From Stenotrophomonas maltophilia (GTDB taxonomy: Bacteria; Pseudomonadota; Gammaproteobacteria; Xanthomonadales; Xanthomonadaceae), in the NCBI RefSeq assembly GCF_006970445.1, contig NZ_CP033877.1, positions 3,294,750 through 3,358,749 of the forward strand: a DNA stretch of 64,000 bases, read 5' to 3'. Made by a program: the position numbers and the translations under genes. Every line of letters starts with the position of its first letter. The first letter of the stretch is position 1. Positions 9,960 through 25,607 of the stretch are shown piece after piece. The notes below the pieces were generated by a model, which saw only the letters and a program-made list of their open reading frames with translations, was not told the origin of the DNA and searched no databases.

Positions 9960-9966
9960 GTTGGGC

Positions 9967-10062
9967 GGGGCGGTGTCGGGTTGCGGGGACGCCGTAAACC
10001 CGTCCTTGGGGGCTTGGCCGCGGCATCCATGCCGCGGACACCCCGCAACCCGACACCGCCCC
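9967..10062 (+). repeat. Large hairpin element, copy 1
   Basis: A perfect 22-bp outer stem (9967-9988 with 10041-10062) encloses a loop holding ACGCCGTAAACCCGTCC, GGGGCTTGG and an inner 8-bp stem CCGCGGCA/TGCCGCGG (10018-10037). The 3' flank has CTGACAGTTTCCCGG. It lies in the 619-bp gap between the FadJ-like gene and pirin, which otherwise holds only repeats. A short open frame across it on the minus strand (DAAAKPP...GLRRPR) is a translation of the conserved loop, not a likely gene. Confidence 0.85.
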
Positions 10063-10106
10063 ACCCCTGACAGTTTCCCGGTGACGGTGGGTGAACTGCG
10101 ATGGCT

Positions 10107-10130
10107 GTAGGTGTCGACCTTGGTCGACAC
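10107..10130 (+). repeat. GTAG-type palindrome
   Basis: GTAG followed by GTGTCGACC-TT-GGTCGACAC; a second stem class of the GTAG repeats. Confidence 0.75.
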
Positions 10131-10148
10131 CAGGAGCGAAGCGACCGG

Positions 10149-10190
10149 CGTTTGATTTTGATTTTGATTTTCTTTTTTTCTTCTTCGTGG
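10149..10190 (+). repeat. AT-rich hexanucleotide microsatellite
   Basis: Three tandem GATTTT units followed by a C/T-only tract. It is strikingly AT-rich for this genome and lies between hairpin elements 1 and 2. Confidence 0.7.
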
Positions 10191-10218
10191 CTGGACGCAC
10201 ACGGAAACTGTCAGAGGT

Positions 10219-10316
10219 CGGGCGGGTGGGTTGCGCAGGACCGTTGGCGCCATGGATGGCGCCATCGAGCCCCCATGGATGGGTTTACGGCGTGTCCTGC
10301 GCAACCCACCCGCCCG
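10219..10316 (-). repeat. Large hairpin element, copy 2 (inverted)
   Basis: A perfect 23-bp outer stem (10219-10241 with 10294-10316) has a sequence unlike copy 1. The loop, read on the minus strand, holds ACGCCGTAAACCCATCC and GGGGCTCG. The inner stem TGGCGCCAT/ATGGCGCCA spans 10245-10264. CTGACAGTTTCCG follows the stem on the minus strand. Confidence 0.85.
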
Positions 10317-10479
10317 GCCAAGCACGACTTTTGATCTTGCTTCCGCCTTCAGCGACCAAGCAACCAGCCACGAGGGGCTGCGCCGTTGGCTGGAACAACC
10401 TGTTACCCATACGGGGCATGTGCCCGTCACAGCTGCATGCGATGCTGACCACCTGATCCCTGCCAGCGAGAACGCCCGC

Positions 10480-11343
10480 ATGACCACCATCATCGCACCG
10501 CGCGTGCACGACATCGGCGGCCTCGAAGTCCGTCGCGCCGTCCCTACCCTGCAGGCGCGCAGCATCGGTTCGTTCGTGTTCGTCGACCAGATGGGCCCGG
10601 CACTCATGCACCCCGGCACCGCCATCGACGTGCGCCCGCATCCGCATATCGGCCTGGCCACAGTCACCTACCTGTGGTCGGGCGCCATCGGCCACCGCGA
10701 CACGCTGGGCTCGGATCAGGTGATCCGTCCCGGTGACGTCAACTGGATGACCGCCGGCCGCGGTATCGCCCATTCCGAGCGCACGCCGCAGCCGGACCGC
10801 GATCACGACAACCCGATCCACGGCATGCAGACCTGGGTGGCACTGCCGAAATCGCATGAGGAAATCGAACCGGCGTTCTACCACCATGCCGCGGCCACCC
10901 TGCCCGAGCAGCGCCGCAATGGTGTCTGGCTGCGAGTGATCGCCGGCCGCGCCTATGGCGAGGAATCGCCGGTGAAGGTGTTCGCCGACACCCTCAACGT
11001 AGCGATCGATCTCGACCCGGATGCGGAGATCGATATCGACAATGGCCACCGCGAGCGCGCGTTGTACATCCTCGAAGGCGACGCGCAGTTGGACGGCGTT
11101 GACATCCCCGCCCAGCATCTGGTGATCCCCGAAGCCGGTGCGATAGGTCGCCTGCGTGCGAAGACGCCGGTGAAGGCGATGCTGTTCGGCGGCGAGCCGC
11201 TGGATGGCCCGCGTCATCTGTGGTGGAACTTCGTCTCCAGTTCGAAGGAGCGCATCGAGCAGGCCAAGCACGATTGGGAAGCCGGCCGCTTCGGCACCAT
11301 TCCGGGCGACGACAAGGAATTCATCCCCCTTCCGCAGTACTGA
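10480..11343 (+). CDS. Pirin family protein (first of two)
   Basis: Bicupin of 287 residues; pirins bind a metal, and some act as quercetin 2,3-dioxygenases or redox-linked co-regulators. Metal-ligand-type histidines are seen in RPHPHIGLATVTYLW, GHRDTLGS and AHSERT, with the pirin signature WMTAGRGIAHSE. ATG 10480 was chosen because pirin similarity begins there; the in-frame extension upstream to 10231 translates hairpin element 2. Substrate is unknown. A second, divergent pirin lies at 12968-13819. Confidence 0.9.
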   Translation: MTTIIAPRVHDIGGLEVRRAVPTLQARSIGSFVFVDQMGPALMHPGTAIDVRPHPHIGLATVTYLWSGAIGHRDTLGSDQVIRPGDVNWMTAGRGIAHSERTPQPDRDHDNPIHGMQTWVALPKSHEEIEPAFYHHAAATLPEQRRNGVWLRVIAGRAYGEESPVKVFADTLNVAIDLDPDAEIDIDNGHRERALYILEGDAQLDGVDIPAQHLVIPEAGAIGRLRAKTPVKAMLFGGEPLDGPRHLWWNFVSSSKERIEQAKHDWEAGRFGTIPGDDKEFIPLPQY

Positions 11344-11421
11344 ACATCGCGTGTTGCACACATCCGAAGGTGTATCCCTGCACCCGGCGTTGACGCTACA
11401 GTCACCCGCTGATCATTGAAA

Positions 11422-11437
11422 TGTGACATAAATCACA
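11422..11437. promoter_or_regulatory. Consensus CRP/Clp-type operator upstream of aqpZ
   Basis: TGTGACATAAATCACA matches TGTGA-N6-TCACA exactly and is flanked by AAA and CTT as in strong CRP sites. The centre is about 35 bp before the aqpZ ATG. In Xanthomonadaceae the CRP homologue Clp, which answers to cyclic di-GMP in Xanthomonas, recognises the same sequence. This position could overlap the start site, so repression is as possible as activation. Confidence 0.75.
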
Positions 11438-11464
11438 CTTTCGACCGTCAAAGGAGTGCAACAC

Positions 11465-12184
11465 ATGAGCATGGGTAAACGCTTGTCCGCCGAGTTCCTC
11501 GGCACGTTCTGGCTGGTTCTGGGTGGCTGTGGCAGTGCGGTGCTGGCCGCCAAGTTCGGTGGTGACGGCAATCCGCTGGGTATCGGTTTCCTCGGCGTAG
11601 CGCTCGCCTTTGGCCTGACCGTGGTGACCGGCGCCTATGCGTTCGGCCATATCTCCGGCGCGCACTTCAATCCGGCGGTCAGCGTCGGACTGTGGGCCGG
11701 TGGTCGTTTCCCGACCAAGGACCTGGTGCCCTACATCATCGCCCAGGTCGCCGGCGGCCTGCTGGCCGGCTTCATCCTGCTGCAGATCGCCTCCGGCGCC
11801 AGCGGCTTCGCCATCGATGGCAGCCAGGCCGGTGCGTTCGCCAGCAATGGCTATGGCGCGCTGTCGCCCGGCGGCTACAGCGTGGCGGCCGCCTTCCTGT
11901 GCGAAGTGGTGCTGACCGCGGTGTTCCTGATCGTGATCATGGGTTCCACCCACGGCAAGGCACCGGCCGGTTTCGCCCCACTGGCGATCGGCCTGTCGCT
12001 GACCCTGATCCACCTGATCAGCATTCCGGTCACCAACACCTCGGTGAACCCGGCCCGCTCCACCGCCGTGGCCTTCTTTGCTGGCAGCGGCGCAGTCAGC
12101 CAGCTGTGGCTGTTCTGGGTCGCCCCCCTGCTGGGCGGCGCGATCGGCGGCCTGATCTACAAGTGGATCGGCAACGACCGCTGA
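11465..12184 (+). CDS. aqpZ: Aquaporin Z
   Basis: Inner-membrane water channel of 239 residues with six membrane helices. The two pore NPA motifs are in HFNPAVS (about residue 67) and SVNPARS (about residue 194), the latter with the selectivity-filter Arg that follows NPA. ATG 11465 has AGGAG eight bases upstream. An upstream in-frame GTG at 11456 overlaps that ribosome site and is less likely. A CRP/Clp-type operator sits just ahead. Confidence 0.95.
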
Positions 12185-12196
12185 TCCACGCGGCAC

Positions 12197-12225
12197 CCAT
12201 TGCGGTCGACCCTCGGCCGCAATGG
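12197..12225 (+). terminator. Terminator-like hairpin after aqpZ
   Basis: CCATTGCGG/CCGCAATGG inverted repeat, interrupted near the loop, beginning 12 bp after the aqpZ stop. The following T content is weak. Confidence 0.5.
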
Positions 12226-12380
12226 TTACGCTTGTAACCGCGAATTGTGCGATTGCTCACGTTCCGTTAAGGTTGAGTTGACCATCCGTGCACATGCCGG
12301 ATGGGGCGGCATCCGGGGATGGGATGCCATGCCGCTGGCCCTGCTGGCGGTGCCAAACAACTCATCACCTTGGGGGATGC

Positions 12381-12839
12381 ATGAAGTTCGTGCCTGTCAT
12401 GTTGTCGAGCCTGCTGTTCGCTGCGGCCCAGGCCGCCGCACAGGCACCGTCCGAATGTCCTTCGCTGCCGGCCAGCAGCGGGCTGCAGTGGCAGCAGCAG
12501 GTGCAGGCCGATTTCCTGGTCTGCCGCGCAAGCACCAGTGACGGTCGAGAAGTACTGAGCCTGATGCTCAGCGCGCGTGATCCGGCCATTCCGCTGAGCC
12601 GCTCGCTGCGCCAGGAAAAAGGCAGCTTCGGCGGCGAATCGCTGTACTGGTACCAGCCCGACCTGGGCGGCCAGCAACCGCCGGGTTATGCCGAGCGCCG
12701 CATCAGCGTGGTCAAGATCGACAAAGGGCGTTACGCGCAGATTTCGCTGTATCCGGACAGCGCGCAGGAACTGGGCTCGTTGCAACAGCTGGCGCAGGGC
12801 ATGAGCCTGACCCCGTCGGCCGTGGCTGCCGGGCGCTGA
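12381..12839 (+). CDS. Secreted protein of unknown function
   Basis: A 152-residue protein with a clear Sec signal peptide (MKFVPVMLSSLLFAAAQAAAQA). The mature part has two cysteines (SECPSLP and LVCRAS) that could pair. TGGGGGATGC just before ATG 12381 serves as ribosome site. I do not recognise a family. It stands alone between aqpZ and the convergent second pirin. Confidence 0.8.
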   Translation: MKFVPVMLSSLLFAAAQAAAQAPSECPSLPASSGLQWQQQVQADFLVCRASTSDGREVLSLMLSARDPAIPLSRSLRQEKGSFGGESLYWYQPDLGGQQPPGYAERRISVVKIDKGRYAQISLYPDSAQELGSLQQLAQGMSLTPSAVAAGR

Positions 12840-12846
12840 AGGTGAC

Positions 12847-12872
12847 GGGGATGACTGCCTGGCAGCATCCCC
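12847..12872 (+). terminator. Hairpin after the secreted orphan
   Basis: GGGGATG-A-CTGCC-T-GGCAG-CATCCCC long stem 8 bp after the stop. No T-run; probable mRNA end or stabiliser. Confidence 0.5.
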
Positions 12873-12893
12873 GCAGCGCGACCCGATCCGACG

Positions 12894-12916
12894 GTAGTGC
12901 CGGCCGCTGGCCGGCA
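12894..12916 (+). repeat. SMAG (GTAG) REP element
   Basis: GTAG plus TGCCGGCC-GCT-GGCCGGCA. A decayed inverted partner (TGCCGACC-AAC-GGCCGGCA) lies at about 12943-12961. Confidence 0.85.
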
Positions 12917-12967
12917 CCCCGATCCGCCTTTATCCGAGGCTGTTGCCGACCAACGGCCGGCACCCCC

Positions 12968-13819
12968 TCAGAACTTGCCTTCCTGGAAATCGACGAAGGC
13001 CTGCATCAGTTCCTGCCGCGTGTTCATCACGAACGGGCCGTGCCGCATCACCGGCTCGCGCAGCGGACGGCCGGCCACCAGGATCAGGCGCGCGCCTTCG
13101 CTGCCGGCCGAAACATGCAGCTGTTCGCCACCGCCCAGCACCGCCAGTTCCTGGCGCGCGACATCGCGCGCAGCATCCTGCTCACCCACCGTCAACGCAC
13201 CTTCGAAGACATAGGCGAAGGCGTTGTGGCCTTCCGGCAGCGCGTAGGTCCAGGCCCGGTCGGGCGCCAGCGTGATCTCGAGGTAGAGCGGCTCGGTGGC
13301 CGGCTGCACGATCGGGCCGCGGGTGCCGTCGACCGTGCCGGCGATCACCTTCACTTCCACGCCGGCGTCCGGCTGCACCACGGGAATGCGCTCGGGCGCG
13401 AACTCCTGGTACTTCGGCTCGGTCATCTTCTCCTTCGCCGGCAGGTTCACCCACAGCTGGAAGCCGCGCATCTGCCCGCTTTCCTGCTCGGGCATCTCCG
13501 AGTGCACCAGGCCGCGGCCCGCGGTCATCCACTGCACGCTGCCCGGGGTCAGCAGGCCTTCGTTGCCATGGTTGTCGCGATGCCGCATGCGTCCGTCGAG
13601 CATGTAGGTGACGGTCTCGAAACCGCGGTGCGGATGCTCCGGGAACCCGGCGATGTAGTCCTCGGCGCGGTCGGTGCCGAATTCATCGAGCAGCAGGAAC
13701 GGATCCAGGTCCGGCAGCGTGGGGCCGCCGATGACGCGGGTCAGGCGCACGCCGGCACCGTCGGAGGTGGGCATGCCACGGATGGTCCGCAGCACGCGGA
13801 CCGGTTCGGGAAAGCTCAT
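12968..13819 (-). CDS. Pirin family protein (second)
   Basis: Bicupin pirin of 283 residues, closer to YhhW/quercetinase-type pirins than the first copy. Metal-ligand-type histidines are in EHPHRGFETVTYML, RHRDNHG and LVHSEMPE. The start is ATG 13819 because AGGAG precedes it; the longer in-frame form to 13891 lacks support. It faces cstA divergently across 215 bp, with no recognisable operator seen in that gap. Confidence 0.92.
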   Translation of the reverse strand: MSFPEPVRVLRTIRGMPTSDGAGVRLTRVIGGPTLPDLDPFLLLDEFGTDRAEDYIAGFPEHPHRGFETVTYMLDGRMRHRDNHGNEGLLTPGSVQWMTAGRGLVHSEMPEQESGQMRGFQLWVNLPAKEKMTEPKYQEFAPERIPVVQPDAGVEVKVIAGTVDGTRGPIVQPATEPLYLEITLAPDRAWTYALPEGHNAFAYVFEGALTVGEQDAARDVARQELAVLGGGEQLHVSAGSEGARLILVAGRPLREPVMRHGPFVMNTRQELMQAFVDFQEGKF

Positions 13820-14034
13820 GGCGACTCCTGTTGGATGGATGCCAGTGAAGATGGACGCCACATGGCCGTACGCCAATGGATGGCACCGCAACCGATTGTT
13901 CCATCCCTGATGTTCGTTGCACGTCAGCGCAACCGCCGTACGACCAAAGTACTAACGCCGATTCGTCCTGTGCCAATTGACCCTGTCGAGGGCACGCGGG
14001 ACTCTTTGTCTGTCTTTCCGGGAGAGAGCACCTC

Positions 14035-16116
14035 ATGAAAGGGTTTTCCAAACTGGGCTGGGCGGTACTCGCCCTGCTCGGCGCGTTCTGTCTGGGCACC
14101 GTGGCGCTGCGCCGCGGCGAACACATCAATGCCCTGTGGATCGTCGTCGCGGCGGTGTCGCTGTACCTCGTCGCCTATCGCTTCTACAGCCTGTTCATCG
14201 CCAACAAGGTGATGCAGCTCGATCCGACCCGGGCCACCCCGGCGGTGATCAACAACGATGGCCTGGATTACGTGCCGACCAACAAGCACGTGTTGTTCGG
14301 CCACCACTTCGCCGCCATCGCGGGCGCCGGCCCGCTGGTCGGCCCGGTCCTGGCTGCGCAGATGGGCTACCTGCCCGGACTGCTGTGGCTGGTGGTGGGC
14401 GTGGTGCTGGCTGGAGCGGTGCAGGACTTCATGGTCCTGTTCCTGTCCAGTCGCCGCAATGGTCGCTCGCTGGGCGATCTCGTGCGCGAGGAGATGGGCC
14501 AGGTGCCCGGCACCATCGCGCTGTTCGGTGCGTTCCTGATCATGATCATCATCCTGGCGGTGCTGGCGATGGTGGTGGTCAAGGCACTGGCCGAAAGCCC
14601 GTGGGGCATGTTCACGGTGATCGCGACGATGCCCATCGCGATCCTGATGGGCGTGTACATGCGCTACATCCGCCCCGGCAAGATCGGCGAGATCTCGGTG
14701 GTCGGCCTGATCCTGCTGCTGGCCGCGATCTGGTACGGCGGCAAGGTCGCCGCCGACCCGGTATGGGGCCCGGCGTTCACCTTCACCGGCACCCAGATCA
14801 CCTGGATGCTGATCGGCTATGGCTTCGTCGCTTCGGTGCTGCCGGTGTGGCTGCTGCTGGCCCCGCGTGACTACCTGTCGACCTTCCTCAAGATCGGCAC
14901 CATCATCGCGCTGGCCATCGGCATCCTGGTGGTGATGCCGGAGCTGAAGATGCCGGCGCTGACCCAGTTCGCCGCCAGCGGTGATGGCCCGGTGTGGAAG
15001 GGCGGCATGTTCCCGTTCCTGTTCATCACCATCGCCTGCGGTGCGGTGTCGGGTTTCCACGCGCTGATTTCCTCCGGCACCACGCCGAAGCTGCTGGCCA
15101 ATGAAGCGCACATGCGCTACATCGGCTACGGCGGCATGCTGATGGAATCGTTCGTGGCAGTGATGGCGCTGGTGGCGGCCTCGATCATCGATCCGGGCAT
15201 CTACTTCGCGATGAACAGCCCGGCTGCCGTGATCGGTGCCGATGCGGCTTCGGCCGCGCACTACATCACCAACACCTGGGGCTTCACCATCACGCCCGAG
15301 CAGCTGACCGCGACCGCGGCGGCGATTGGCGAGCCGACCATCCTGCACCGCGCCGGTGGTGCGCCGACACTGGCAGTGGGCATCGCGCAGATCCTGCACC
15401 AGGCCATCCCCAGCAGCAGCGACGCGATGATGGCGTTCTGGTACCACTTCGCGATCCTGTTCGAAGCACTGTTCATCCTGACCGCAGTGGACGCCGGCAC
15501 CCGTGCCGGGCGCTTCATGCTGCAGGACCTGCTGGGCAATTTCGTGCCGGCCCTGAAGAAGACCGAGTCGTGGACCGCCAACATCATCGGCACCGCCGGC
15601 TGCGTGGCACTGTGGGGCTACCTGCTCTACACCGGCGTGGTCGATCCGTTCGGTGGTATCCAGACGCTGTGGCCGCTGTTCGGCATCTCCAACCAGATGC
15701 TGGCCGGTATCGCGCTGATGCTGGGCACGGTGGTACTGTTCAAGATGAAGCGTGACCGCTATGCGTGGGTTACCGCAGTACCGGCAGTGTGGCTGCTGAT
15801 CTGCACCACCTACGCCGGCTTCATCAAGATCTTCGACAGCAACCCGGCGCAGGGCTTCCTGGCACAGGCACACAAGTTCCAGGCCGCGCTCGCCAGCGAC
15901 ACGATCACCGCACCGGCCAAATCGGTGGCGCAGATGAAGCAGATCGTGGTCAACGCCTACGTCAACACTGGCCTGACCGCGCTGTTCCTGCTGGTGGTGG
16001 GCGCAGTGCTGGTGTATTCGATCAAGACCATCCTCGCGGCCCGCCGCAATCCGCAGCGCACTGACCGCGAAACCCCGTACGTGGCGCTCAAGCCGCATGA
16101 AATGGTGGATCTGTGA
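14035..16116 (+). CDS. cstA: Carbon starvation protein CstA (pyruvate/peptide transporter family)
   Basis: A 693-residue polytopic inner-membrane protein with many hydrophobic helices. CstA/BtsT proteins import pyruvate or peptides under carbon limitation. The CstA-characteristic [20 protein letters not shown] is near residue 90, and [15 protein letters not shown] is in the middle. GGGAGAG precedes ATG 14035. The stop overlaps the start of the YbdD-like gene (TGATG), the conserved cstA-ybdD pairing. Confidence 0.95.
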
Positions 16117-16340
16117 TGAGCACGCAACTGGTTCCCGCCGGCCAGTACCAGGCGCACCGCCGCATCTGGCGGCGCCTGGTGCAGACCGCACGACTGTGCT
16201 GTGGCATTCCTGATTACGACAACTACGTCCGGCACATGCTGGAAAAGCATCCGGACCAGGAGCCGATGGACTACAAGACGTTCTTCCGCGAACGACAGGA
16301 AGCGCGTTACGGCGGACGCAACGGTGGCCGTTGCTGTTGA
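16116..16340 (+). CDS. YbdD/YjiX family small protein
   Basis: A 74-residue cytosolic protein of the YbdD/YjiX (DUF466) family that regularly follows CstA-type transporters. Family features visible are [19 protein letters not shown] and a C-terminal [11 protein letters not shown] tail. ATG 16116 shares one base with the cstA stop. A one-codon-earlier GTG at 16113 is also possible. A role as accessory to the transporter is inferred from the pairing. Confidence 0.9.
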
Positions 16341-16437
16341 GCGGTGAGGTGGGTGCCGGGCTCACAGCCCGGCGCCCGCAGAGTCAACTGCAACTGCAAC
16401 GGCCAAAGCGTCGGCTCTGGTTTTCCGTGAATTTGGC

Positions 16438-16510
16438 GGGGTGGTGTCGGATGGCGGGGACGCCGTAAACCCGTCCTTGGGGGCTTGGCCGCGGCATCCG
16501 ACACCACCCC
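16438..16510 (+). repeat. Large hairpin element, copy 3 (short form)
   Basis: A perfect 16-bp outer stem GGGGTGGTGTCGGATG/CATCCGACACCACCCC (16438-16453 with 16495-16510) encloses the conserved loop ACGCCGTAAACCCGTCC...GGGGCTTGG. The inner hairpin has lost its second arm, so the left stem pairs straight into CATCC. CTTCGACAGATTTCCGG follows. The 403-bp gap from 16341 to 16743 contains this element and the hairpins listed next. Confidence 0.83.
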
Positions 16511-16550
16511 ACCTTCGACAGATTTCCGGTGACGGCAAGAAGCATCAGGG

Positions 16551-16592
16551 GGCAGATCCGTTTCCGCAGGGAAACGGATCTGTCCTTTCTTT
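16551..16592 (+). terminator. Strong hairpin with T-rich tail (GATCCGTTT family)
   Basis: CAGATCCGTTTCC pairs perfectly with GGAAACGGATCTG across a 4-base loop, followed by TCCTTTCTTTG. The core is shared with the hairpin at 25235-25280. Confidence 0.68.
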
Positions 16593-16650
16593 GTTCATGG
16601 ATACCCATGAAGTGCATCCACGCATGACGTGGATCTATCCGGTGGCAGGC

Positions 16651-16678
16651 AAAAAGAAAGCCGAGCGTGGGCCCGGCT
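16651..16678 (-). terminator. Rho-independent terminator of the DUF819 gene
   Basis: On the minus strand AGCCGGGC-CCAC-GCTCGGCT is followed by TTTCTTTTT, about 65 bp after the DUF819 stop. Confidence 0.8.
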
Positions 16679-16743
16679 CTGCACGGGGAAGGCGTGTCCA
16701 CGGCAATTGCCGTGAACACGCAACATGATCGTCAGCTCAGGAC

Positions 16744-17994
16744 TCAGGCCCCGGCCATCCACTTCAGGATCAAGCCGGTGGCGTAGGCCAGGCCGGTGCC
16801 GGTGGCATAGCCCACCGTGCCCAGCAACACACCTACCGGGGCCAGCGTCGGATGGAACGCCGCTGCCACCACGGGGGCCGAGGCGGCCGCGCCGATGTTG
16901 CCCTGCGAACCGATCGCGAAGAAGAACAGCGGCGCGCGCAGCAGCTTGGCTACCACCCACAGCACCAGCACGTGCGTGGCCATCCAGATCGCGCCGAGCA
17001 GGAACAGCCACGGCCGATCCAGCAGCGACAGCAGGTTCATCTGCATGCCGATGCACGCGATCAGGAAGTACAGGAACACCGTGCCCAGCCGCGAAGCGCC
17101 TGCGGCTTCCAGCCGGCGTGCACGGGTGAAACTCAGGCCCAGGCCCATCGCCGTGGACAGCAGGATCACCCAGACGAACTGGCTATCGAGACTGAACTGG
17201 CTGGCCCAGCTGACATTGGCCTTGAACCAGCCCGACAGCGGCGCGGCGATGGCGTGGGCCAGGCCGACGCCACCCAGTGCCACGCCAACGATCACCATCA
17301 GGTCGGTCATGCTGGGAATGCGCGCGTTCTGAGCCTCGTAGGCACTGATGCGCGCCTTCATCTCGTCGATCGCGCGGGTATCGGCACCATTGCGGGTATC
17401 GATCTGCTGCGCGCGGTTGGCCAGGAACAGCAGGATCGCCATCCACAGGCTGGCGCAGGCCACGTCGACCACCGCGAACTGTCCAAAGGTGGTGGCGTCG
17501 GTGCCGAACACCTCGCGCATGGCAACCATGTTGGCGCCGCCACCGATCCAGCTGCCGGCCAGAGCGGCCATGCCGGCCCAGGTATCACCGGCCACCGTTT
17601 CCGGATGGATCAGCTTCATCAGCTGGAACGAGACGATGGCGCCGAGCATGATGCCGGCGGTACCGGCGCAGAACACGATCAGCAGTTTCGGGCCGAGCTT
17701 GGCGATGCCCTTCAGATCGATCGACAGCGTCAGCAGGACCAGCGCGGCCGGCAGCAGCACGTCGCGCGCGACGGGGTTGTACAGCGAGGTGTTGTGGCCA
17801 TCGATGACACCGGCGGTGTTGTAGATGGCGGGGATGAAGTAGCACAGCAGCAGTGCCGGCACCCAGGCGAAGATCTTCTTCAGCAGTGGGGTCGGGCCAC
17901 TGGCGGCCCAGAAGATCAGGGCCAGGGTGGCGGCAATCAGGCCCAGTCCAACGATGTCGTTGCTGATCAGGGCAGTAGCGGGTTCGGTCGGCAT
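16744..17994 (-). CDS. DUF819 family membrane protein
   Basis: A 416-residue polytopic inner-membrane protein of the DUF819 (YjcL-like) family, with about ten to twelve hydrophobic helices and glycine-rich stretches such as [18 protein letters not shown] and [19 protein letters not shown]. The substrate is not established. ATG 17994 was chosen since AGAGGAT precedes it; the frame continues upstream to 18153 without support. A terminator follows. It is divergent from the VOC gene. Confidence 0.85.
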
Positions 17995-18151
17995 GGGATC
18001 CTCTGTCGATCGAAAGAGCGGGAAAAAAAAGCGCCGCATAAAGCGGCGCAGGTCGAGATTAACACTGTCTTCACGCCGGGTCATGCTGCGCTGCTTGCCG
18101 CGTTCCCCTGCATTGACGACTATTGCTGCATCGCCGTTGTGGAGCAGGCCC

Positions 18152-18541: not shown

Positions 18542-18552
18542 TGCCGTGGGGT

Positions 18553-18575
18553 TGCCGGCCAGCGGCCGGCACTAC
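18553..18575 (-). repeat. SMAG (GTAG) REP element
   Basis: Inverted copy: TGCCGGCC-AGC-GGCCGGCA then CTAC. It lies between the convergent VOC and histidine kinase genes and may serve as a shared 3' end. Confidence 0.85.
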
Positions 18576-19882
18576 CGCGATGTGGGGCGCGAAGCGCCGA
18601 AGTCCAGGGTGACGCGTGTGCCGCGCGGTTCACAAGGCTGCAGCTGGAGGGTCCAGCCCAGGTGTTCGCACAGCCGCGCGATCAGGTCCAGGCCGATGCC
18701 GCCGCCACGATCGGCGCGCTCCCCCCGCGCCATGCGGGCGTGGATCGCTGCGATCTCCTCCGGGCTCATGCCATGTCCCGGGTCCTGCAGGGTCAGCACC
18801 GCAGACGAACTCAGCTGCAGCTCGATATGGCCGCGACCGCTGTTCTCGATGGCATTGCGCAGCAGGTTGCCGATCGCTGCCTGCACCACCGCCAGCGGCG
18901 CGACGATGTCCACCGGTGCGGCCTGGATGCCGATGCTCAGGTCCTTGTCGCCCAGCAAATGGCGATGGTCGTCAACGATCTCCGGCAGCAGCTGGTCCAA
19001 TGCGATGCGCTCGGCACGCGCGGCCAGGCGCGCCGGATCGCGCGCCAGCACCAGCAGCAGCTCGATCAGCTGCTCCACGCTCTGTGCCGTGCGCAGGACC
19101 CGCTGCACCTGCTGGCGGGCACGCTCGGGCAGGCCCGGTTGCTCCAGCGCCAGCTCGGCTGCACCGGTCATCACCGCGATCGGCGTGCGCAGCTCGTGGC
19201 TGGCGGTACTGATGAAGACCCGCTCGCGCTCGACGAACTGCTCGTTGCGGTCCAGGTAGTCGTTCAACGCATCGGCGATGGTGTGCAGCTCGGAACTGCC
19301 GCGTGGATCGACCTCGATGCGCTGGCCCTGGACGCCCGGCCGCAACGCGCCGATGTGCTGGGCCAGCAGGCTCAACGGGCGCACCATGCGCTCCATGCCG
19401 AAGGACGCCATCAGCACGGTGACGAAGATCATGATCACCCCGGCCAGCATCACCCAACGCGTGGCGAACTGCTCCAGGTCATGGAAGTCGGAGATGTCCA
19501 GCGCCAGCGCGACGCGCCCCATGGAACGGGTCTCGCGCACCATCACCGCCGTCTCCCGCCCCTTGATCATCACTCCGTCGTGCAATCCCGGATGCAGCGT
19601 ACGCAGGCTCTCAGGCAGGTTGACTGCATCGAAGCGGTACAGACTGAGCGTGTCCGAATCCTGCCAGCGATAGTGCGGTTCATGCTCGACGTGCTCGACG
19701 ATGCTGTCCAGCTCGGAATTGAGCAGCGCACGCCAGGCCGCGTGTTCGGCGTGCTCGTGCACATAGTTGCCAACGCTGAACACGGCGATCGACAGCAGGG
19801 CCAGGTAGCCCAGCAGCCACCACACCACGCGCCGGTACAACGGCCCCGGCTTACGCGCCTTCATCATCATCCTTGCCAGCAT
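18572..19882 (-). CDS. ColS-like sensor histidine kinase
   Basis: A 436-residue inner-membrane sensor. Two membrane helices (about 18-39 and 143-163) flank a short periplasmic domain rich in His and Glu, with two ExxE patterns (EHAE 43-46, EHVE 63-66). ColS kinases of pseudomonads use an ExxE site to sense Zn/Fe. HAMP follows, then the H-box STASHELRTPIAV, an N-box (NLLRNAIENS) and G-boxes (DPGHGMS, GGGIGLDL). It overlaps the response regulator by 32 bp; the start may instead be one of the ATG triplet at 19870-19862, behind AAGG. Assignment as ColS is inferred from motif and neighbours. Confidence 0.85.
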   Translation of the reverse strand: MLARMMMKARKPGPLYRRVVWWLLGYLALLSIAVFSVGNYVHEHAEHAAWRALLNSELDSIVEHVEHEPHYRWQDSDTLSLYRFDAVNLPESLRTLHPGLHDGVMIKGRETAVMVRETRSMGRVALALDISDFHDLEQFATRWVMLAGVIMIFVTVLMASFGMERMVRPLSLLAQHIGALRPGVQGQRIEVDPRGSSELHTIADALNDYLDRNEQFVERERVFISTASHELRTPIAVMTGAAELALEQPGLPERARQQVQRVLRTAQSVEQLIELLLVLARDPARLAARAERIALDQLLPEIVDDHRHLLGDKDLSIGIQAAPVDIVAPLAVVQAAIGNLLRNAIENSGRGHIELQLSSSAVLTLQDPGHGMSPEEIAAIHARMARGERADRGGGIGLDLIARLCEHLGWTLQLQPCEPRGTRVTLDFGASRPTSR

Positions 19883-20564
19883 CCGTGGCCGTGGTCACCG
19901 CCAGGCGATAGCCTACCCGTGGCAGGGTATGGATCAGTTTCTCGGCGAAGGGGCCGTCAACGCTGCGGCGCAGTTCGTAGACATGCGAGCGCAGCAGGTC
20001 GCCGTCCGGCGGCTCGTCGCCCCACAGCGCGAACTCCAGCTGCTGGCGGGTCACCGCCCCCGGGCTGGCACGCATCAGCACTTCCAGCAGCTTGCGGCAG
20101 GCCGGGTACAGATGCAGCACCTGGCTGCCGCGCTGGGCCTCCAGGGTTGCAAGGTCCAGCACCAGGTCGCCCACCTGCAGGCGCTTGCGCGGATTGCGGC
20201 CCTGCGCGCGCAGCAGCAGCGCCTCCAGCCGCACTTCCAGCTCGGGCAGGGCGAACGGCTTGGTCAGGTAGTCGTCGGCGCCGGCGCGGAAGCCGGCGAT
20301 CTTGTCCGGCAGCTCATCTCGCGCGGTCAGCATGATCACCGGCACCTCCGACGCGTGCTCGGCGCGCAGGCGACGCAGCACCTCCGGGCCCTCCATGCGC
20401 GGCAGCATCCAGTCCAGGATCACTGCATCGTAGGGGTGGCTGCCGGCCAGGTGCAGGCCGGTGATGCCATCCGGGGCCACGTCGAGCACGTGCCCGCGCG
20501 ACTCGAAATAGTCGAACAGGTTGGCCACCAGCTGGCGGTTGTCCTCGATCACCAACAGACGCAT
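19851..20564 (-). CDS. OmpR-family response regulator (ColR-like)
   Basis: A 237-residue two-domain regulator. The receiver domain begins MRLLVIEDNRQLVANLFDYF with phospho-acceptor Asp in VILDWMLP and Lys in LTKPFALPELE. The OmpR/PhoB winged helix is C-terminal (YPACRKLLEVLMRASPGAV, RSHVYELRRSVD, LPRVGYRL). The start is MRLLVIED at 20564; an in-frame extension to 20609 has no ribosome site either. Neighbouring eptA and PAP2 genes, divergently transcribed, are typical ColR targets, hence the call. Confidence 0.9.
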   Translation of the reverse strand: MRLLVIEDNRQLVANLFDYFESRGHVLDVAPDGITGLHLAGSHPYDAVILDWMLPRMEGPEVLRRLRAEHASEVPVIMLTARDELPDKIAGFRAGADDYLTKPFALPELEVRLEALLLRAQGRNPRKRLQVGDLVLDLATLEAQRGSQVLHLYPACRKLLEVLMRASPGAVTRQQLEFALWGDEPPDGDLLRSHVYELRRSVDGPFAEKLIHTLPRVGYRLAVTTATDAGKDDDEGA

Positions 20565-20695
20565 GCACGAAACATCCACGGAAGTTCGTACCATGGTAGC
20601 GCCGCACATGTCGGAATGCGGTCGCCCCGGCGCCGCTCTGACGCTTTTCCTACCCCTGCCACGTCAGAGTGGCCGTTTTGCTCCCGGAGCCTGCC

Positions 20696-22399
20696 GTGCC
20701 CGTAGCCCTGCCCCGCCGTTGGCGCCTGCCCCTGTTGTGGCTGCTGATCATTGCTGCGCTGGCAGCGGGGATCGGCCTTCGGCAGCCACAGCCGCCGGAC
20801 GAGCCGCGCTTCGTGCTGGCGGCGCGGACCATGGTCGAAAGCGGGGAATGGCTGCTGCCGCACCGCGGCGTGGAGTTGTACGCGGAGAAGCCGCCGGTCT
20901 TCATGTGGCTGCAGGCGGCGGCCTATGAGATCGTCGGCAGCTGGCAGTGGTCGTTCCTGCTGCCGTCGCTGCTGGGCGCCCTGCTCAGCCTGTGGCTGGT
21001 CTCGGACCTGGCACGCCGGCTGTGGTCCCCCCGGCATTCCCTGTACGCGCTGGCGGCGCTGTTCTGCACCCTGCAGTTTGGCCTGATGGCCAAGCGCGCG
21101 CAGATCGACATGGTGCTGGTCGGCATGACCACGGTGGCCCTGTGGGGACTGATGCGCCACCTGTGCGAGCGCCGCAACCTGCCCGCATTGTGGCTGGCGG
21201 GTTTCGCCGCGGGCCTCGGCACGGTGACCAAGGGCGTGGGTTTCCTGCCACTGCTGATGGTGCTGCCCTGGTTCGGCTGGTGGCTGTACCAGCGCCGTCG
21301 CGGGCACCGCGTGGAGGGCCCGCATCCGGCAACGCTGCTGTGGCTGATCCCGGCCTTCCTGCTGGGCGTGGCGGTGTGGCTTGCCCCGCTGGGCTGGGCA
21401 CTGCTGCATGAGCCCAGTGCGGCACTGCAGTCCTATGCCCACGAACTGCTGTTCAAGCAGACCGGCACGCGCTACGCCAATGCCTGGCACCACCGCCAAC
21501 CGGTCTGGTACTACCTGCAGGTGATCCTGACCCTGTGGCTGCCGGGCAGCCTGCTGCTGCCGATGCTGTTCAAGCCGTGGTGGCGCCGCATCCGCCGTGG
21601 CGACCGCCGGCAGTGGCTGCTGCTGGGCTGGGCGCTGCTGGTGCTGGTGTTCTTCAGTGCCAGCCCCGGCAAGCGCGAGGTCTATGTGCTGCCGATGCTG
21701 CCGGCGATGGCACTGGCGGTGGCCCCGTTGTTGCCGGGCCTGCTGCGCCGCCTGTGCGTGCGCCGCTACCTGTTCGGCTACAGCGTGGTGCTGATGCTGG
21801 CCACCGGCGTACTCGGCGTGATGCTGATGACCGAGCACCCGTGGGCGTTGGCGCAACTGGATCGGCGGGCGATGCCCGATACGCTGCTGCCGGTGCTGGG
21901 GGATGGCCTGCTGACCTTTGCCATTGCCCTGGCCACGTTGATCGTGTGGCTGCGGGTGCGCCGCGCTGCAACGCTGGTGCTGCTGACCCACGGCATGCTG
22001 TGGATGCTCTACGGCCTGGTGCTGATCCCCGCGCTGGATCCGTTCGCGTCGGCATCGGCGGTGATGCGCCGGGTGGGCGCGCGGATCGGACCGGACGCTG
22101 AACTTGCGCTGGTCGCCTGGCGCGAACAGAACCTGCTGCAGGCCGACCGGCCGGTGCGCGAGTTCGGCTTCAAGCGCCCCTGGGCCGAGCAGTGGCATGA
22201 CGCCGGCCCGTGGTTGGCCGAGGCACCAGCGAAGCGCTGGCTGCTGGTGCTGGACGATGCGATGAGCCCGTGCGTGGACCCGACCAAGGTGATCGACATC
22301 GGCATTGCCAACAGGAATCGTTGGCAACTGCTTCCCGGTACGGCCTGGGACCCGCAATGCCATGCCGAACGGGCCGGCTCGACCGCGGAAGAAGACTGA
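20696..22399 (+). CDS. PMT/ArnT-like membrane glycosyltransferase
   Basis: A 567-residue polytopic enzyme of the dolichyl-phosphate-mannose/lipid A aminoarabinose transferase superfamily. After the first helix the periplasmic loop carries the acidic motif QPPDEPRF, which in this superfamily coordinates metal and the lipid-phosphate sugar donor. Helices fill residues about 80-400, and a soluble tail follows. GTG 20696 is chosen because CGGAG lies six bases upstream; an in-frame GTG at 20669 is the alternative. The sugar and acceptor are unknown, but the setting beside PAP2 and EptA suggests lipid A or another envelope glycolipid. Confidence 0.82.
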   Translation: MPVALPRRWRLPLLWLLIIAALAAGIGLRQPQPPDEPRFVLAARTMVESGEWLLPHRGVELYAEKPPVFMWLQAAAYEIVGSWQWSFLLPSLLGALLSLWLVSDLARRLWSPRHSLYALAALFCTLQFGLMAKRAQIDMVLVGMTTVALWGLMRHLCERRNLPALWLAGFAAGLGTVTKGVGFLPLLMVLPWFGWWLYQRRRGHRVEGPHPATLLWLIPAFLLGVAVWLAPLGWALLHEPSAALQSYAHELLFKQTGTRYANAWHHRQPVWYYLQVILTLWLPGSLLLPMLFKPWWRRIRRGDRRQWLLLGWALLVLVFFSASPGKREVYVLPMLPAMALAVAPLLPGLLRRLCVRRYLFGYSVVLMLATGVLGVMLMTEHPWALAQLDRRAMPDTLLPVLGDGLLTFAIALATLIVWLRVRRAATLVLLTHGMLWMLYGLVLIPALDPFASASAVMRRVGARIGPDAELALVAWREQNLLQADRPVREFGFKRPWAEQWHDAGPWLAEAPAKRWLLVLDDAMSPCVDPTKVIDIGIANRNRWQLLPGTAWDPQCHAERAGSTAEED

Positions 22400-22408
22400 A
22401 CGTTGGCA

Positions 22409-22436
22409 CGCGCCGGGGAATCATTAACCCGGCGCG
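22409..22436 (+). terminator. Hairpin after the glycosyltransferase gene
   Basis: CGCGCCGGG/CCCGGCGCG perfect 9-bp stem with a 10-base AT-rich loop, 9 bp after the stop, no T-run. It could attenuate transcription into the PAP2-eptA pair. Confidence 0.5.
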
Positions 22437-22476
22437 AACGAGCGTCCGACCCTTCTCCGACATCCAGGTGACGAGC

Positions 22477-22530
22477 ATGACTGCGGATTCCCGAACCGCC
22501 CCTTCCCAGCATGCCCGTTCGTCCCCTTGA
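22477..22530 (+). CDS. Possible 17-residue leader peptide overlapping the PAP2 start
   Basis: ATG at 22477, behind AGGTGACG, opens a frame of 17 codons (MTADSRTAPSQHARSSP) that ends with TGA at 22528-22530, inside the start of the PAP2 gene in another frame. The PAP2 ATG at 22511 has no good ribosome site of its own, so re-initiation from this leader is conceivable. It could equally be chance. Confidence 0.3.
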   Translation: MTADSRTAPSQHARSSP

Positions 22531-23278
22531 TTCGGTAGCGCCGCTTGCGACATCGCCACTGGCGTCAAAATTTGCCGTAACTCACCTTTGGCTACCTGTC
22601 GCAATCGGTCTGCCCGTGTTCACGCTGCTGATGGGTTTCGGCGGCGACCAGTGGGTGGCCGATCACCTGTTCCGACTTGAGGGCGGCCATTGGGCGTTGC
22701 AGGACGCCTGGATCACCCGCTCGGTGGTGCACAAGGCCGGCAAATGGCTGAGCACGGCAGCAGCGCTGGTGGCGATCCTGCTGTGCTTCCACCACTGGCG
22801 CAAGGGACGCGATCGCACCCTGCGATGGGCGCTGCTTTATGTCGTAATTGCCATGGCGCTGGGCACCGGCGTGATCTCCCTGCTGAAGGCACTGGTGCCG
22901 ATGGAATGCCCGTGGGATCTGCTGCGCTACGGCGGCCACGAGCCCTTCATCGGGTTGCTCACGCTGCGCCCTGATGGCATGGCGCCGCGTGCCTGCTTCC
23001 CGGCCGGCCACGCCAGCGCGGGCTATGCCTGGCTATGCCTTTACTATTTCGCCTTGCTGTGGCGCCCTTCATGGCGCTGGGCCGGGTTGTGGATCGGTCT
23101 TGCCACCGGCCTGGTGTTCGGTATCAGCCAGCAGCTTCGGGGCGCGCATTTCCTTTCGCATGACATTGCCACTGCATTGATATGTTGGCTGCTTTCGCTC
23201 GGCCTGTATCTGATCGTCAAACGCGTCCTGACACGCCGTCAGCCGGACCGTCCCAACCGCCAGGAGGCAAACGCATGA
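22511..23278 (+). CDS. PAP2 family phosphatase (envelope lipid type)
   Basis: A 255-residue membrane phosphatase with five to six helices. The PAP2 catalytic motifs are KALVPMECPWD (first motif, atypical), CFPAGHASAGYAW (second) and RGAHFLSHD (third, with the nucleophile-relay His and Asp). Such enzymes dephosphorylate undecaprenyl pyrophosphate, phosphatidylglycerophosphate or lipid A. The last 4 bp overlap the eptA start (ATGA), so the two are almost certainly co-translated. This arrangement is seen near ColRS in other gammaproteobacteria. Confidence 0.9.
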   Translation: MPVRPLDSVAPLATSPLASKFAVTHLWLPVAIGLPVFTLLMGFGGDQWVADHLFRLEGGHWALQDAWITRSVVHKAGKWLSTAAALVAILLCFHHWRKGRDRTLRWALLYVVIAMALGTGVISLLKALVPMECPWDLLRYGGHEPFIGLLTLRPDGMAPRACFPAGHASAGYAWLCLYYFALLWRPSWRWAGLWIGLATGLVFGISQQLRGAHFLSHDIATALICWLLSLGLYLIVKRVLTRRQPDRPNRQEANA

Positions 23279-24924
23279 GTGCATCGGTCCAACGCCCCGC
23301 CCGCCTCCCCGCGTTGGCGAGTCTTCGCCGCTGGCGGCCGCAGCTGTCCACCGAAGCACTGATCGCACTGACCAGCCTGTTCTTCGCGGTGGCCGGCAAC
23401 GGCCTGTTCTGGCACAGCGCGATGGCCAGCCATCCGGGCAGCCTGCGCTATGCGCTTTCGCTGCTGCTGTTGCTGCTGGGTGCGCACGGCGTGCTGCTGG
23501 GCATCCTGGTCTGGCGCTGGAACGCCAAGGTGGTGATCAGCCTGTTGCTGCTGGTGACCGCATTCGCCGCGCACTACATGAGCCGCTACCACATCTACCT
23601 GGATGCGGACATGCTGCGCAACGTGCTGGCGACCGACCCCAAGGAAAGCCGCGAGCTGATGACCGTGTCGCTGCTGTGGCCGGTGCTGTTGCTGGCAGTG
23701 CTGCCGATGGTGGTGCTGTGGCGCGTGCAGCTGCGTCGTCGCAGTTGGGGCCGCAGCCTGCTGTGGCGATTGGGCTTCCTGGTGGTGGCGGCGGTGACCG
23801 CCGTCGGCGGCGCGTTGATCTCGTTCCAGGATGTCTCGGCACTGATGCGCAACCAGCGCGAAGTGCGCTACCTGGCTACGCCTGCCAATGTGCTGCTGGG
23901 CATGCCGCGTGCATTGCGTGGCGACAACCCGGTGCAGCGCGCACCGAAGTTGCCGATCGGCACCGATGCCAAGGCCACCCCGCGAGCACCGGCCAGCAAG
24001 CCGCGGCTGCTGGTGATCGTCATGGGCGAGACCGTGCGCGCGCAGAACTGGGGCCTCAACGGTGGCCGCAACACCACCCCGGAACTGGCGCAGGCCAGCG
24101 TGATCAATTTCCCGGACATGCATTCGTGCGGCACCAGCACCGAGGTTTCACTGCCGTGCCTGTTCTCGCCGTGGGGTCGCCACGACTACGACGAAAAGAA
24201 GATCCGTGCCCACCAGTCGCTGCTGCACGTCCTGAACCGCGCCGGTATCGCGCCGTTGTGGCGTGACAACCAGTCCGGCTGCAAGGGCGTGTGCGAGGGC
24301 CTGGACTTCCAGTCGCTGTCCGACGCCACCACCCCGGGCCTGTGCGCCGATGGCCGCTGCATGGACGAGATCCTGCTGCAGGACCTGGCCACCCAGGTAC
24401 GGGCCAAGCCCGGCGACCGGGTGGTGGTGCTGCACCAGCTGGGCAACCACGGGCCGGCCTACTTCGAGCGCTATCCGCCCGCATTCCGCCGCTTCACTCC
24501 GACCTGCGACACCCGTGACATCGGCCGTTGCTCGCGCGAAGAGATCACCAACAGCTACGACAATGCCGTGCTGTACACCGATCACTTCCTGACCAAGACC
24601 ATCGGCACGCTGCAGGGCATGCAGGACTACGACACGGCGATGATCTACCTGTCCGACCACGGCGAGTCGCTGGGCGAGAAGGGCCTGTTCCTGCACGGCG
24701 TGCCCTACGCCATCGCCCCGGCCGAGCAGACCCGGGTACCGATGACGATGTGGTTCTCGCAGGGCTTCGCCAGCAGCCGCGGGTTGGACCTGCAGTGCGT
24801 GCGCAAGCGGTCGGCGGCGTATACCGACCATGACAACCTGTTCCCGTCGGTGCTGGGCCTGATGCAGGTGAAGACCTCGCTGTACGAGCGCGACCGGGAC
24901 GTGTTCGCCAGCTGCGAAGGTTGA
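23275..24924 (+). CDS. eptA: Lipid A phosphoethanolamine transferase EptA
   Basis: Inner-membrane enzyme that adds phosphoethanolamine to lipid A phosphates and lowers binding of cationic peptides such as polymyxin. The 549 residues comprise five N-terminal helices and a periplasmic sulfatase-like domain. Metal and catalytic residues are seen in VMGETVRAQNW, SCGTSTEVSLPC (nucleophile Thr287 or Thr289) and YLSDHGESLGEKG. Paired cysteines are those of the family. AGGAGG precedes ATG 23275. It is coupled to the PAP2 gene and lies near a ColRS-like system that may regulate it. Confidence 0.94.
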   Translation: MSASVQRPARLPALASLRRWRPQLSTEALIALTSLFFAVAGNGLFWHSAMASHPGSLRYALSLLLLLLGAHGVLLGILVWRWNAKVVISLLLLVTAFAAHYMSRYHIYLDADMLRNVLATDPKESRELMTVSLLWPVLLLAVLPMVVLWRVQLRRRSWGRSLLWRLGFLVVAAVTAVGGALISFQDVSALMRNQREVRYLATPANVLLGMPRALRGDNPVQRAPKLPIGTDAKATPRAPASKPRLLVIVMGETVRAQNWGLNGGRNTTPELAQASVINFPDMHSCGTSTEVSLPCLFSPWGRHDYDEKKIRAHQSLLHVLNRAGIAPLWRDNQSGCKGVCEGLDFQSLSDATTPGLCADGRCMDEILLQDLATQVRAKPGDRVVVLHQLGNHGPAYFERYPPAFRRFTPTCDTRDIGRCSREEITNSYDNAVLYTDHFLTKTIGTLQGMQDYDTAMIYLSDHGESLGEKGLFLHGVPYAIAPAEQTRVPMTMWFSQGFASSRGLDLQCVRKRSAAYTDHDNLFPSVLGLMQVKTSLYERDRDVFASCEG

Positions 24925-25018
24925 GGGTTGTTCGGCAGGGCTTGCAGCCCTGCACCTGCAGAGGCAACTGCAACCGCAACGGCCGAAGCAACAGCAACAG
25001 CATGCATTCCGTGGGATG

Positions 25019-25198
25019 GCGGGGTGGGTCCGGTGGCGGGAGACGCCGTAAACCCCGCTCCGCGGTCCGGCCCAGCCGCTGGCGGCTGTGCGTTCGGGCG
25101 CTTGCGAAGCAGTGCTTCGCAAGCAAAGCGCCCTCACCCATGGGGGCTTGGCCGCGGCATCCATGGCGCTCACGCCCCCGCAACCGGACCCACCCCGC
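25019..25198 (+). repeat. Large hairpin element, copy 4 (long loop)
   Basis: The outer stem pairs 25019-25040 with 25175-25198 (about 22 bp, one mismatch). The loop starts ACGCCGTAAACCCCG and ends GGGGCTTGGCCGCGGCATCC as in copies 1 and 3. In between is an extra block of about 90 bases holding a hairpin CTTGCGAAGCA/CTTCGCAAG. CTTCGACAGTTTTCCG follows. The 683-bp gap 24925-25607 holds copies 4 and 5, a hairpin and a GTAG repeat, and no supported gene. Confidence 0.8.
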
Positions 25199-25234
25199 CT
25201 TCGACAGTTTTCCGCGATCGGTTGGAACGACCTT

Positions 25235-25280
25235 GGGGTCGGATCCGTTTTCCGGAGGAAAACGGATCCGACCCCATTTT
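25235..25280 (+). terminator. Perfect 19-bp hairpin with T-tail (GATCCGTTT family)
   Basis: 25235-25253 pairs without mismatch with 25257-25275 across a 3-base loop, followed by ATTTT. It is strong enough to stop transcription from eptA, though 310 bp downstream. The core GATCCGTTTTCC resembles 16551-16592. Confidence 0.7.
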
Positions 25281-25301
25281 GATTGTCGATACCTGACAGG
25301 T

Positions 25302-25325
25302 GTGTCGACCAAGGTCGACACCTAC
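25302..25325 (-). repeat. GTAG-type palindrome
   Basis: GTGTCGACC-AA-GGTCGACAC then CTAC; the inverted form of the 10107-10130 copy. Confidence 0.75.
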
Positions 25326-25350
25326 CGACAGCACACGGAATCTGTCAGAG

Positions 25351-25450
25351 GTGGGGCGGTGTCGGAGTGCGGGGTGTCAGCCGCATGGATGCGGCTGCCA
25401 AGCCTACAGGGACGTACTTGCGGCGTCCCCGCACTCCGACACCGCCCCAC
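25351..25450 (-). repeat. Large hairpin element, copy 5 (inverted)
   Basis: Perfect 24-bp outer stem (25351-25374 with 25427-25450). Read on the minus strand the loop holds ACGCCGCAAGTACGTCC and a perfect inner stem CAGCCGCAT/ATGCGGCTG (25378-25397). CTCTGACAGATTCCGTG follows on the minus strand. Confidence 0.83.
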
Positions 25451-25607
25451 CAAACCACGGATAGTCCGCTGTTGCTGTTGCTTCGGCCTTTGCCGTTGCC
25501 TGAAGGCCTCTGCGGGTGCCGGGCGCCGCCCGGCCGACTTCCGCCACTTGCGGTGGCGGCGACTGCCCACTAGCCTTCGGCCGTCGTTCACCACCCAAGG
25601 ATCGCCC

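Follow-up and report, generated by a model that had tools for sequence, protein, structure and literature searches.

A stretch of 64,000 nt from the chromosome of Stenotrophomonas maltophilia (assembly GCF_006970445.1, contig NZ_CP033877.1, positions 3,294,750 to 3,358,749 of the forward strand; the whole stretch is called the window below) contains five copies, c1 to c5 (Table 1), of a large intergenic hairpin repeat. We read this repeat, with a probability of roughly 0.58, as a dispersed RNA element, paired head to head, that would bind the regulator CsrA/RsmA through two loops; for the binding, the reading draws upon the loop motif and the loop spacing. An initial annotation had claimed five hairpins between window positions 9967 and 25450, and all five proved to be real and structured by sequence reading, inverted-repeat search and folding.

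Fold, loops and covariation of the repeat

A covariance model (R1) was prepared from 17 copies of the S. maltophilia genome, read on the strand that displays the AYGGAY loops (the GGA strand). Further elements were collected with a finder that fixes the pairing and the GC..GC frame of hairpin 2 and no loop letters; it yielded 235 elements, 223 of which passed an outer-stem filter. The order along the GGA strand is foot, outer stem, hairpin 1 (loop ANGGAY), a junction with AGCC, hairpin 2 and the other outer arm; the outer stem and the two hairpins meet at a three-way junction, in a clover-like shape. In hairpin 2 the loop ANGGAN is followed by a five-base bulge (TTTAC, TTCAC or CTTGC in 216/223 elements) and then by GGCGT. 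The median outer stem is 27 bp among the 223 elements (5th to 95th percentile, 20–33) and 26 bp in the copies of this genome. The single inner stem originally described has to be replaced, as each intact copy has two inner hairpins; the box reported after each 3' arm (CYTYGACAGNTTTCCG) is real, and is the reverse complement of the foot at the 5' side of the other strand. The foot consensus on the GGA strand is GGAAACTGTC for the copies of this genome, exact in 6 of the 17 aligned copies and with [AT]CTGTC in 12.

Both hexaloops read ANGGAN in 223/223 elements (all four bases, T, G, A and C, occur at position 2 of loop 2), and with the closing pair all 446 loops of these intact elements are CANGGANG. 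The two GGA triplets lie 20 nt apart in 152 elements and 21 nt apart in 71. The spacing was 20 nt in each of the 150 elements not chosen by a fixed-spacing pattern; 71 of the 73 pattern-derived elements are at 21 nt since that pattern fixed the spacing.

The stems had been described as self-complementary and different between copies, with covariation around a fixed loop, and this was borne out: pairing is kept in each copy despite the different sequence. Among 46 sequences of the family, 19 of 24 core pairs were changed on both sides, and 93.5% of cells were paired, compared to 32–48% with slid partners; in a shuffle test of these sequences, four of five covariation measures were reached by 0/500 shuffles. 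For 96 distinct wider sequences, whose alignment was fitted to the model and so leans to it, 22 of 24 pairs were changed on both sides and no shuffle attained any measure. The 19/24 and 22/24 covarying pairs contradict the two outcomes that the annotation had named against itself, absent covariation and a set of unrelated terminators.

Strand asymmetry and the CsrA/RsmA reading

A G·T mismatch on one strand is an A·C mismatch on the complementary strand, so that a cruciform, or a constraint on both strands, predicts equal numbers of the two. Outer-stem mismatches of the 223 elements, scored on the GGA strand, were 169 G·T and 19 A·C; G·T was in excess in 106 elements and A·C in 10, and retaining one element per distinct inner 12-bp stem gave 143 G·T versus 17 A·C in 182. 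The control, 370 GTAG-tagged hairpins in the same loci, which include chance hairpins (423 other mismatches), gave 73 G·T versus 56 A·C; the elements scored under the rule of the control gave 72 versus 10 (Fisher p 1.6e-6). Two types of SMAG repeat, scored by consensus, gave G·T versus A·C counts of 5 v 2 (62 sites) and 11 v 9 (53 sites). Because the ratio was 169/19 in the elements and 73/56 in the control, we conclude that selection acts on the folded GGA strand, in agreement with the original proposal of selection on a folded DNA or RNA strand. RNA rather than single-stranded DNA as the selected form is the simplest reading. The suggestion of an RNA, or of a site for a loop-specific protein, is likewise supported.

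The protein suggested by the loops is CsrA/RsmA. According to an extract of PMC4894983, CsrA/RsmE targets CANGGANG apical hexaloops, and a pair of GGA about 18 nt apart is optimal for one CsrA/RsmE dimer, the distance in flaA being 21 nt. The titrating RNAs of CsrB/RsmZ type and the flaA leader, as far as they are described there, resemble the repeat in having these hexaloops and two sites about 20 nt apart; they differ in that the sites of the repeat are spread over more than 100 copies near gene ends and are not stacked in one small RNA or leader. CsrA was present in 57/58 complete carrier genomes (the exception is G369) versus 223/256 complete non-carriers (p 0.009), and over all genomes in 64/69 carriers versus 249/300 non-carriers (p 0.04).

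The arrangement of the copies bears upon the same reading. In the R1 search of the 4.55-Mb genome the best 150 of 4621 candidates were scored, and the counts are therefore lower bounds: at least 149 matches, at least 143 of them at E<=1.5e-5. Among the matches listed, neighbours less than 1.5 kb apart were oriented '-+' (feet facing) in 53/53 cases; 51 of these pairs had gaps of 56–249 bp, and 102 of the 149 listed copies sit in close pairs. The two wide '-+' pairs (gaps of 848 and 1000 bp) were considered as transposon remnants and set aside, as the open reading frame listing, taken alone, shows ordinary-looking coding sequence in between. Neighbours less than 500 bp apart in the fetched loci were '-+' in 30/30 cases for this genome, 9/11 for the family and 7/8 for the class. 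Copies alternate in arrays with short gaps, resembling BIMEs, at L075 (G064) and L082 (G017). The orientation relative to genes, which had been proposed as a check, was determined from crude open reading frame calls for 81 of the 88 elements of this genome obtained with the loop-letter-free finder: 41 of the 81 have convergent genes on either side, and in 57 the gene 5' of the GGA RNA runs in the same direction. The copies are mostly near gene 3' ends, and the gene on the 3' side is at a median distance of 94 bp.

We infer that the GGA strand is transcribed at these sites, that CsrA/RsmA is bound and that a regulatory effect results. Read-through transcription of the GGA strand would produce an RNA that folds into the long outer stem, the three-way junction and the two CANGGANG hairpins, and one CsrA/RsmA dimer could then bridge both loops, about 20 nt apart. 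Read-through RNAs with the repeat would in this way become scattered docking sites or sponges for CsrA/RsmA. As copies near gene 3' ends often occur in strict head-to-head pairs, both directions would be covered, a transcript from either side meeting one copy in GGA sense.

Several observations weigh against this reading. The outer stems also held 154 mismatches that are neither G·T nor A·C, and the inner hairpins contained few G-U pairs (5 and 2 cells, in a count that took some elements twice). A folded single DNA strand could likewise tolerate G·T over A·C, and a strand-biased mutation process may be another source of the asymmetry. The fifth covariation measure, further pair types, was reached by 26/500 shuffles. 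Recovery is biased, since GGA copies were the basis of the search models and of one pattern. When 97 wider matches were aligned with the model (65 rows taken from loci chosen by the pattern and 32 from loci chosen by a model), one row had no GGA in loop 1 and five others started with C, and only one of 19 low-scoring, long or truncated rows (18 copies, c4 twice) keeps two CANGGANG, the rest one. Outside the loops, conservation of the core (GAGCC..TTYACGGCGT) goes beyond what CsrA binding requires. CsrA is found in 313/369 genomes of the class anyway, and the association statistics ignore kinship. The 3'-side gene is antisense to the GGA RNA in 57/81 elements and in the same direction in 24/81. 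Finally, transcripts may exist on the TCC strand, since Rfam models Ysr224 there.

Spread, mobility and other explanations

The covariance model, the construction of which had been recommended, gave strong matches in the S. maltophilia genome itself, and the element was found in 32/119 genomes of the taxonomic family. Within the genus, matches at E<=1e-10 were obtained in 49/61 genomes, leaving 12 without a match; a core model (R2) matched in 69/369 genomes of the class, the Gammaproteobacteria (60/271 genera), and a draw from the phylum gave 31/398 genomes, all 31 in the class of S. maltophilia. A pattern scan of named genomes returned at least 116 stretches, 80 of them listed; among those listed were Stenotrophomonas, Idiomarina, Serratia, Erwinia, Yersinia, Saccharospirillum, Steroidobacteraceae and six loci of Desulfopila sp. 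IMCC35006, which we take to belong to Desulfobacterota. One query from Yersinia gave no match in E. coli genomes.

The site of the c1/c2 pair was searched for in 41 genomes of the genus and read in 30 fetched loci, including that of the S. maltophilia genome under study. At 19 loci with 90–100% flank identity, some of them cut by contig ends, both copies were present in 8, one copy in 6 and none by the finder in 5. Inspection of finder-negative loci by eye showed a deletion running between the two CATGGA loops in L302, a fused copy with cassette I (an insert of about 80 nt, see below) in L309 and, in L313 (G127), an insertion-sequence-like stretch in the hairpin 2 loop of the c1 orthologue. 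At 11 loci with 85–87% identity, 5 were without the element in the stretch displayed, 2 had a single copy with, by eye, another stem (L320, L329), and 4 gave no call. In the left copy, the inner part of the outer stem varies among orthologues yet stays complementary. For the right-hand copy in 11 species (L301–L319), one core type is common to 6 and a second to 4, the outer stem being the same in these 10, and one differs in both core and outer stem. Since the outer stem is constant in 10/11 and the core type is not, cores were likely exchanged between copies by conversion or recombination.

An unlikely explanation is a mobile repeat of single-stranded DNA, in which the folded GGA strand would be moved in trans by an HUH or other enzyme recognising the loops. 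The many copies, the patchy spread just described (with 12/61 genus genomes having none), the BIME-like head-to-head pairs, the absence of the element from the orthologous site in 5/11 loci of 85–87% identity and the strand asymmetry, which single-stranded DNA tolerant of G·T could also produce, all fit such a repeat. The initial annotation had suggested a RAYT-type transposase, and this was not supported: 0/59 scanned Y1 transposase loci carried the element within 1.5 kb. These loci (31 + 28, scanned with R1, the Y1 genes of this genome included) are part of the Y1 places found, and with this result mobilisation by RAYT or TIRYT was rejected. Five weak R1 matches at three Y1 loci (L120, L122, L150) were GTAG-type or similar palindromes without the core. 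Among 24 carriers searched, of the 31 other carriers in the family, 5 had no Y1 match at E<=1e-3; on the other hand, the genus genomes without Y1 (3/61: G132, G134, G153) were also without the element, which speaks against rejecting a RAYT. GTAG was found on the GGA strand in 0/17 aligned copies of this genome with their flanks, and CTAC (GTAG on the other strand) in 4/17. The GTAG-tagged hairpins show little of the strand asymmetry, and none of the orthologous c1/c2 sites showed a clean insertion with target duplication. Phage or plasmid carriage was rejected as well, as an exact pattern had no match in viral contigs and two queries found nothing in plasmids.

Similar repeats are on record for the species. 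An extract of PMC3733652 describes two S. maltophilia TIR families tied to Y1 transposases, one of them self-complementary and closely spaced. REP/BIME and TIR repeats, as portrayed in that extract, share with the element that they are dispersed intergenic palindromes, often head-to-head and mostly near gene 3' ends; the element differs in its size of about 100 nt, its two inner hairpins, the strand-asymmetric pairing, the lack of a linked Y1 at the loci scanned and the lack of GTAG on the GGA strand. Many Stenotrophomonas Y1 loci display GGGGTCAGATCCC.. or AAAAGGGGACGGAGG.. inverted repeats and not the element, and in this genome the Y1 transposase at L016 (4342806–4343141) is accompanied by AAAAGGGGACGGAGGGGATTAAGTCG inverted repeats. 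The description of the self-complementary TIR, the only thing compared, fits the GGGGTCAGATCC hairpins beside Y1 genes here, and not the element. Identity with the S. maltophilia TIR families (TIRYT open reading frames 1152/4509, GGGGWSAS) was rejected on the same comparison by partial description, as the Y1-side repeats differ. Self-complementary hairpins (GGGGTCGGATCCG.. and GGGGCAGATCCG..) at window positions 25234–25276 and about 16549–16586 resemble the GGGGTCAGATCCC.. repeats beside Y1 transposases in relatives.

Quite unlikely, in our estimate, is a structured RNA with a binding partner different from CsrA, such as an element for processing or mRNA stability at the 3' ends of genes, whose GGA loops would serve another protein or RNA-RNA contacts. 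The same covariation, fixed loops and strand asymmetry would be expected of it, and the junction bulge (216/223) and GGCGT are conserved beyond the need of CsrA; it is the CANGGANG loops with GGAs 20 nt apart, matching the CsrA arrangement of the PMC4894983 extract, and the retention of A and GGA while neighbouring loop positions vary, that speak for CsrA/RsmA instead. Palindromes that form cruciforms or resemble terminators, or neutral inverted repeats in which copying from arm to arm preserves the match, could explain the location near gene ends and arms that remain complementary as sequences change between orthologues, and are very improbable given the excess of G·T over A·C (which speaks against equal constraint on both strands), the fixed loops and junction, and the lack of a T-run directly after the 3' arms of the window copies, as judged by eye.

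Relation to described families and copies in the window

No description of the repeat had been known to the initial annotation. That statement stands insofar as no paper on the repeat was found, and needs amending in that sub-threshold matches and bridging sequences tie it to two Rfam families, RF01731 (TwoAYGGAY) and RF02770 (Ysr224). The repeat is a divergent, sub-threshold branch of TwoAYGGAY, and its members in Yersinia are overlapped, on the opposite strand, by Ysr224. RF01731 gave 15 matches in the S. maltophilia genome, 0/15 at the cut-off (the best had 42.8 bits versus 43), and no match in 14 control genomes; c2 scored 27.6 bits, below the cut-off. Direct membership in Rfam was therefore rejected, there being no RF01731 match above the cut-off in the window or the genome. 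In a stricter search RF01731 was above its cut-off in 15/369 genomes of the class, with none in the S. maltophilia genome. Three of 12 fetched RF01731 loci (L337, L341, L342) were above the cut-off and also matched R2 at 40.8–50.3 bits; of the others, five matched R2 at 21–29 bits, three at less than 20 bits, and L336 had no match. TwoAYGGAY resembles the element in being multi-copy and in having a long variable stem that closes a junction with two hairpins bearing AYGGAY-type loops, and its close neighbours are mostly head-to-head (4/5 '-+'; one, in G264, is '++'). The two differ in hairpin 2, which in the element is short and has a TTYAC-type bulge and in several TwoAYGGAY matches above the cut-off is long with a ACACGACGU- or ACAGGACGU-like loop.

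The Stenotrophomonas copies scored 27.7–36.8 bits with Ysr224, below its 70-bit cut-off. At two Yersinia loci (L237, L241), core matches of 50.2 and 60.1 bits coincided with Ysr224 matches of 88.3 and 110 bits; the other 18 of the 20 loci searched had none above the Ysr224 or TwoAYGGAY cut-off. Rfam represents Ysr224 on the complementary strand, with a different fold and without the two GGA hairpins. TwoAYGGAY was listed as a probable RNA by Weinberg 2010 (an extract of PMC2864571) and was proposed as a CsrA-binding RNA from motif matches (an extract of PMC4333381); a 2022 review, in the portion available, includes Ysr224 among the 20 most prevalent small RNAs and calls it temperature-responsive (PMC9029176). 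A literature search that left the Rocco 2010 SMAG paper outside the comparison returned nothing on the nature of the repeat, its pairing or its Stenotrophomonas copies, and six consensus strings sought in print led only to papers that look unrelated by their titles and the starts of their abstracts. The genome also carries SMAG-like repeats, as compared with the consensus in an extract of PMC2613905, and the distinction originally made between the hairpins and SMAG units is upheld.

Table 1. Copies of the repeat and associated features in the window (strand refers to the GGA strand).
Feature	Window position	Strand	Description and basis
Copy c1	9962..10076	-	left partner of pair; loops ATGGAT and AAGGAC; R1 124.3 bits, fold
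c1/c2 spacer, 128 bp	10077..10204	no strand	GTAG-type palindrome and T-rich tract; sequence, pair gaps
Copy c2	10205..10321	+	right partner; loops ATGGAT and ATGGAT; R1 137.7 bits
Copy c3	16433..16524	-	single, degenerate: hairpin 1 lost, hairpin 2 AAGGAC loop kept; R1 69.5 bits
Copy c4, long variant	about 25016..25210	-	left partner of second pair; hairpin 1 loop ATGGAT kept
Cassette I in c4	25057..25137	-	about 80 nt, itself structured; replaces hairpin 2 apical loop
Copy c5	25339..25453	+	right partner of second pair; loops ATGGAT and AGGGAC; R1 119.6 bits, fold

In the window, c2 and c5 run opposite to c1, c3 and c4, so that c1/c2 and c4/c5 form head-to-head pairs; the orientation as first read was already that of the GGA strand for c2 and c5 and was the opposite for the other three. 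Folding of c1, c2, c3 and c5 gave z values of -5.0 to -10.2, with none of 200 shuffles as stable; the fold of c4 was computed without the shuffle comparison. The inverted-repeat arms of c1, c2, c3 and c5 are 26, 26, 25 and 25 nt long with 1, 1, 3 and 0 mismatches, and c4 is not among the 25 inverted-repeat pairs listed. Its R1 score of 26.3 bits represents a partial match, and c4 was assigned also by sequence and fold. R1 also matched the other strand of these palindromes four times, at 25–43 bits, which we take as cross-matches, and four further window matches were below 18 bits. Above the cut-off, Rfam had a single match in the window, a glycine riboswitch aptamer at 30719–30821 (+); many microRNA matches in another search were set aside as generic hairpin matches.

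Cassette I occurs in many copies of this genome (L356–L360, L362–L365 and c4), replacing the loop of hairpin 2 and entering after CANGG; in the loci in hand its motif was found in 13 distinct contexts of this genome and 3 elsewhere. Cassette II (L367, L369, L370) lies in the loop of hairpin 1 after CATGG, with its motif in 5 contexts of this genome, and its hairpins with AGGA-type loops are possible extra GGA sites. Copies with cassette I lose loop 2 and those with cassette II lose loop 1; c3 lost a loop together with its hairpin 1.

Tentatively, and with somewhat less than even confidence, we suggest that the element represents a ready-made CsrA/RsmA binding module that has spread across bacterial chromosomes and whose copies would titrate the regulator and bring separate transcripts under its control, with cores swapped and cassettes added on the way; TwoAYGGAY and Ysr224 would be parts of one system. 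If this is true, a dispersed genomic repeat has arisen from the binding site of a global regulator, and the copy number of a genome would help to set both the free level of CsrA/RsmA and the transcripts that it touches. A function would also be suggested for two orphan Rfam families, and their strand would be settled.

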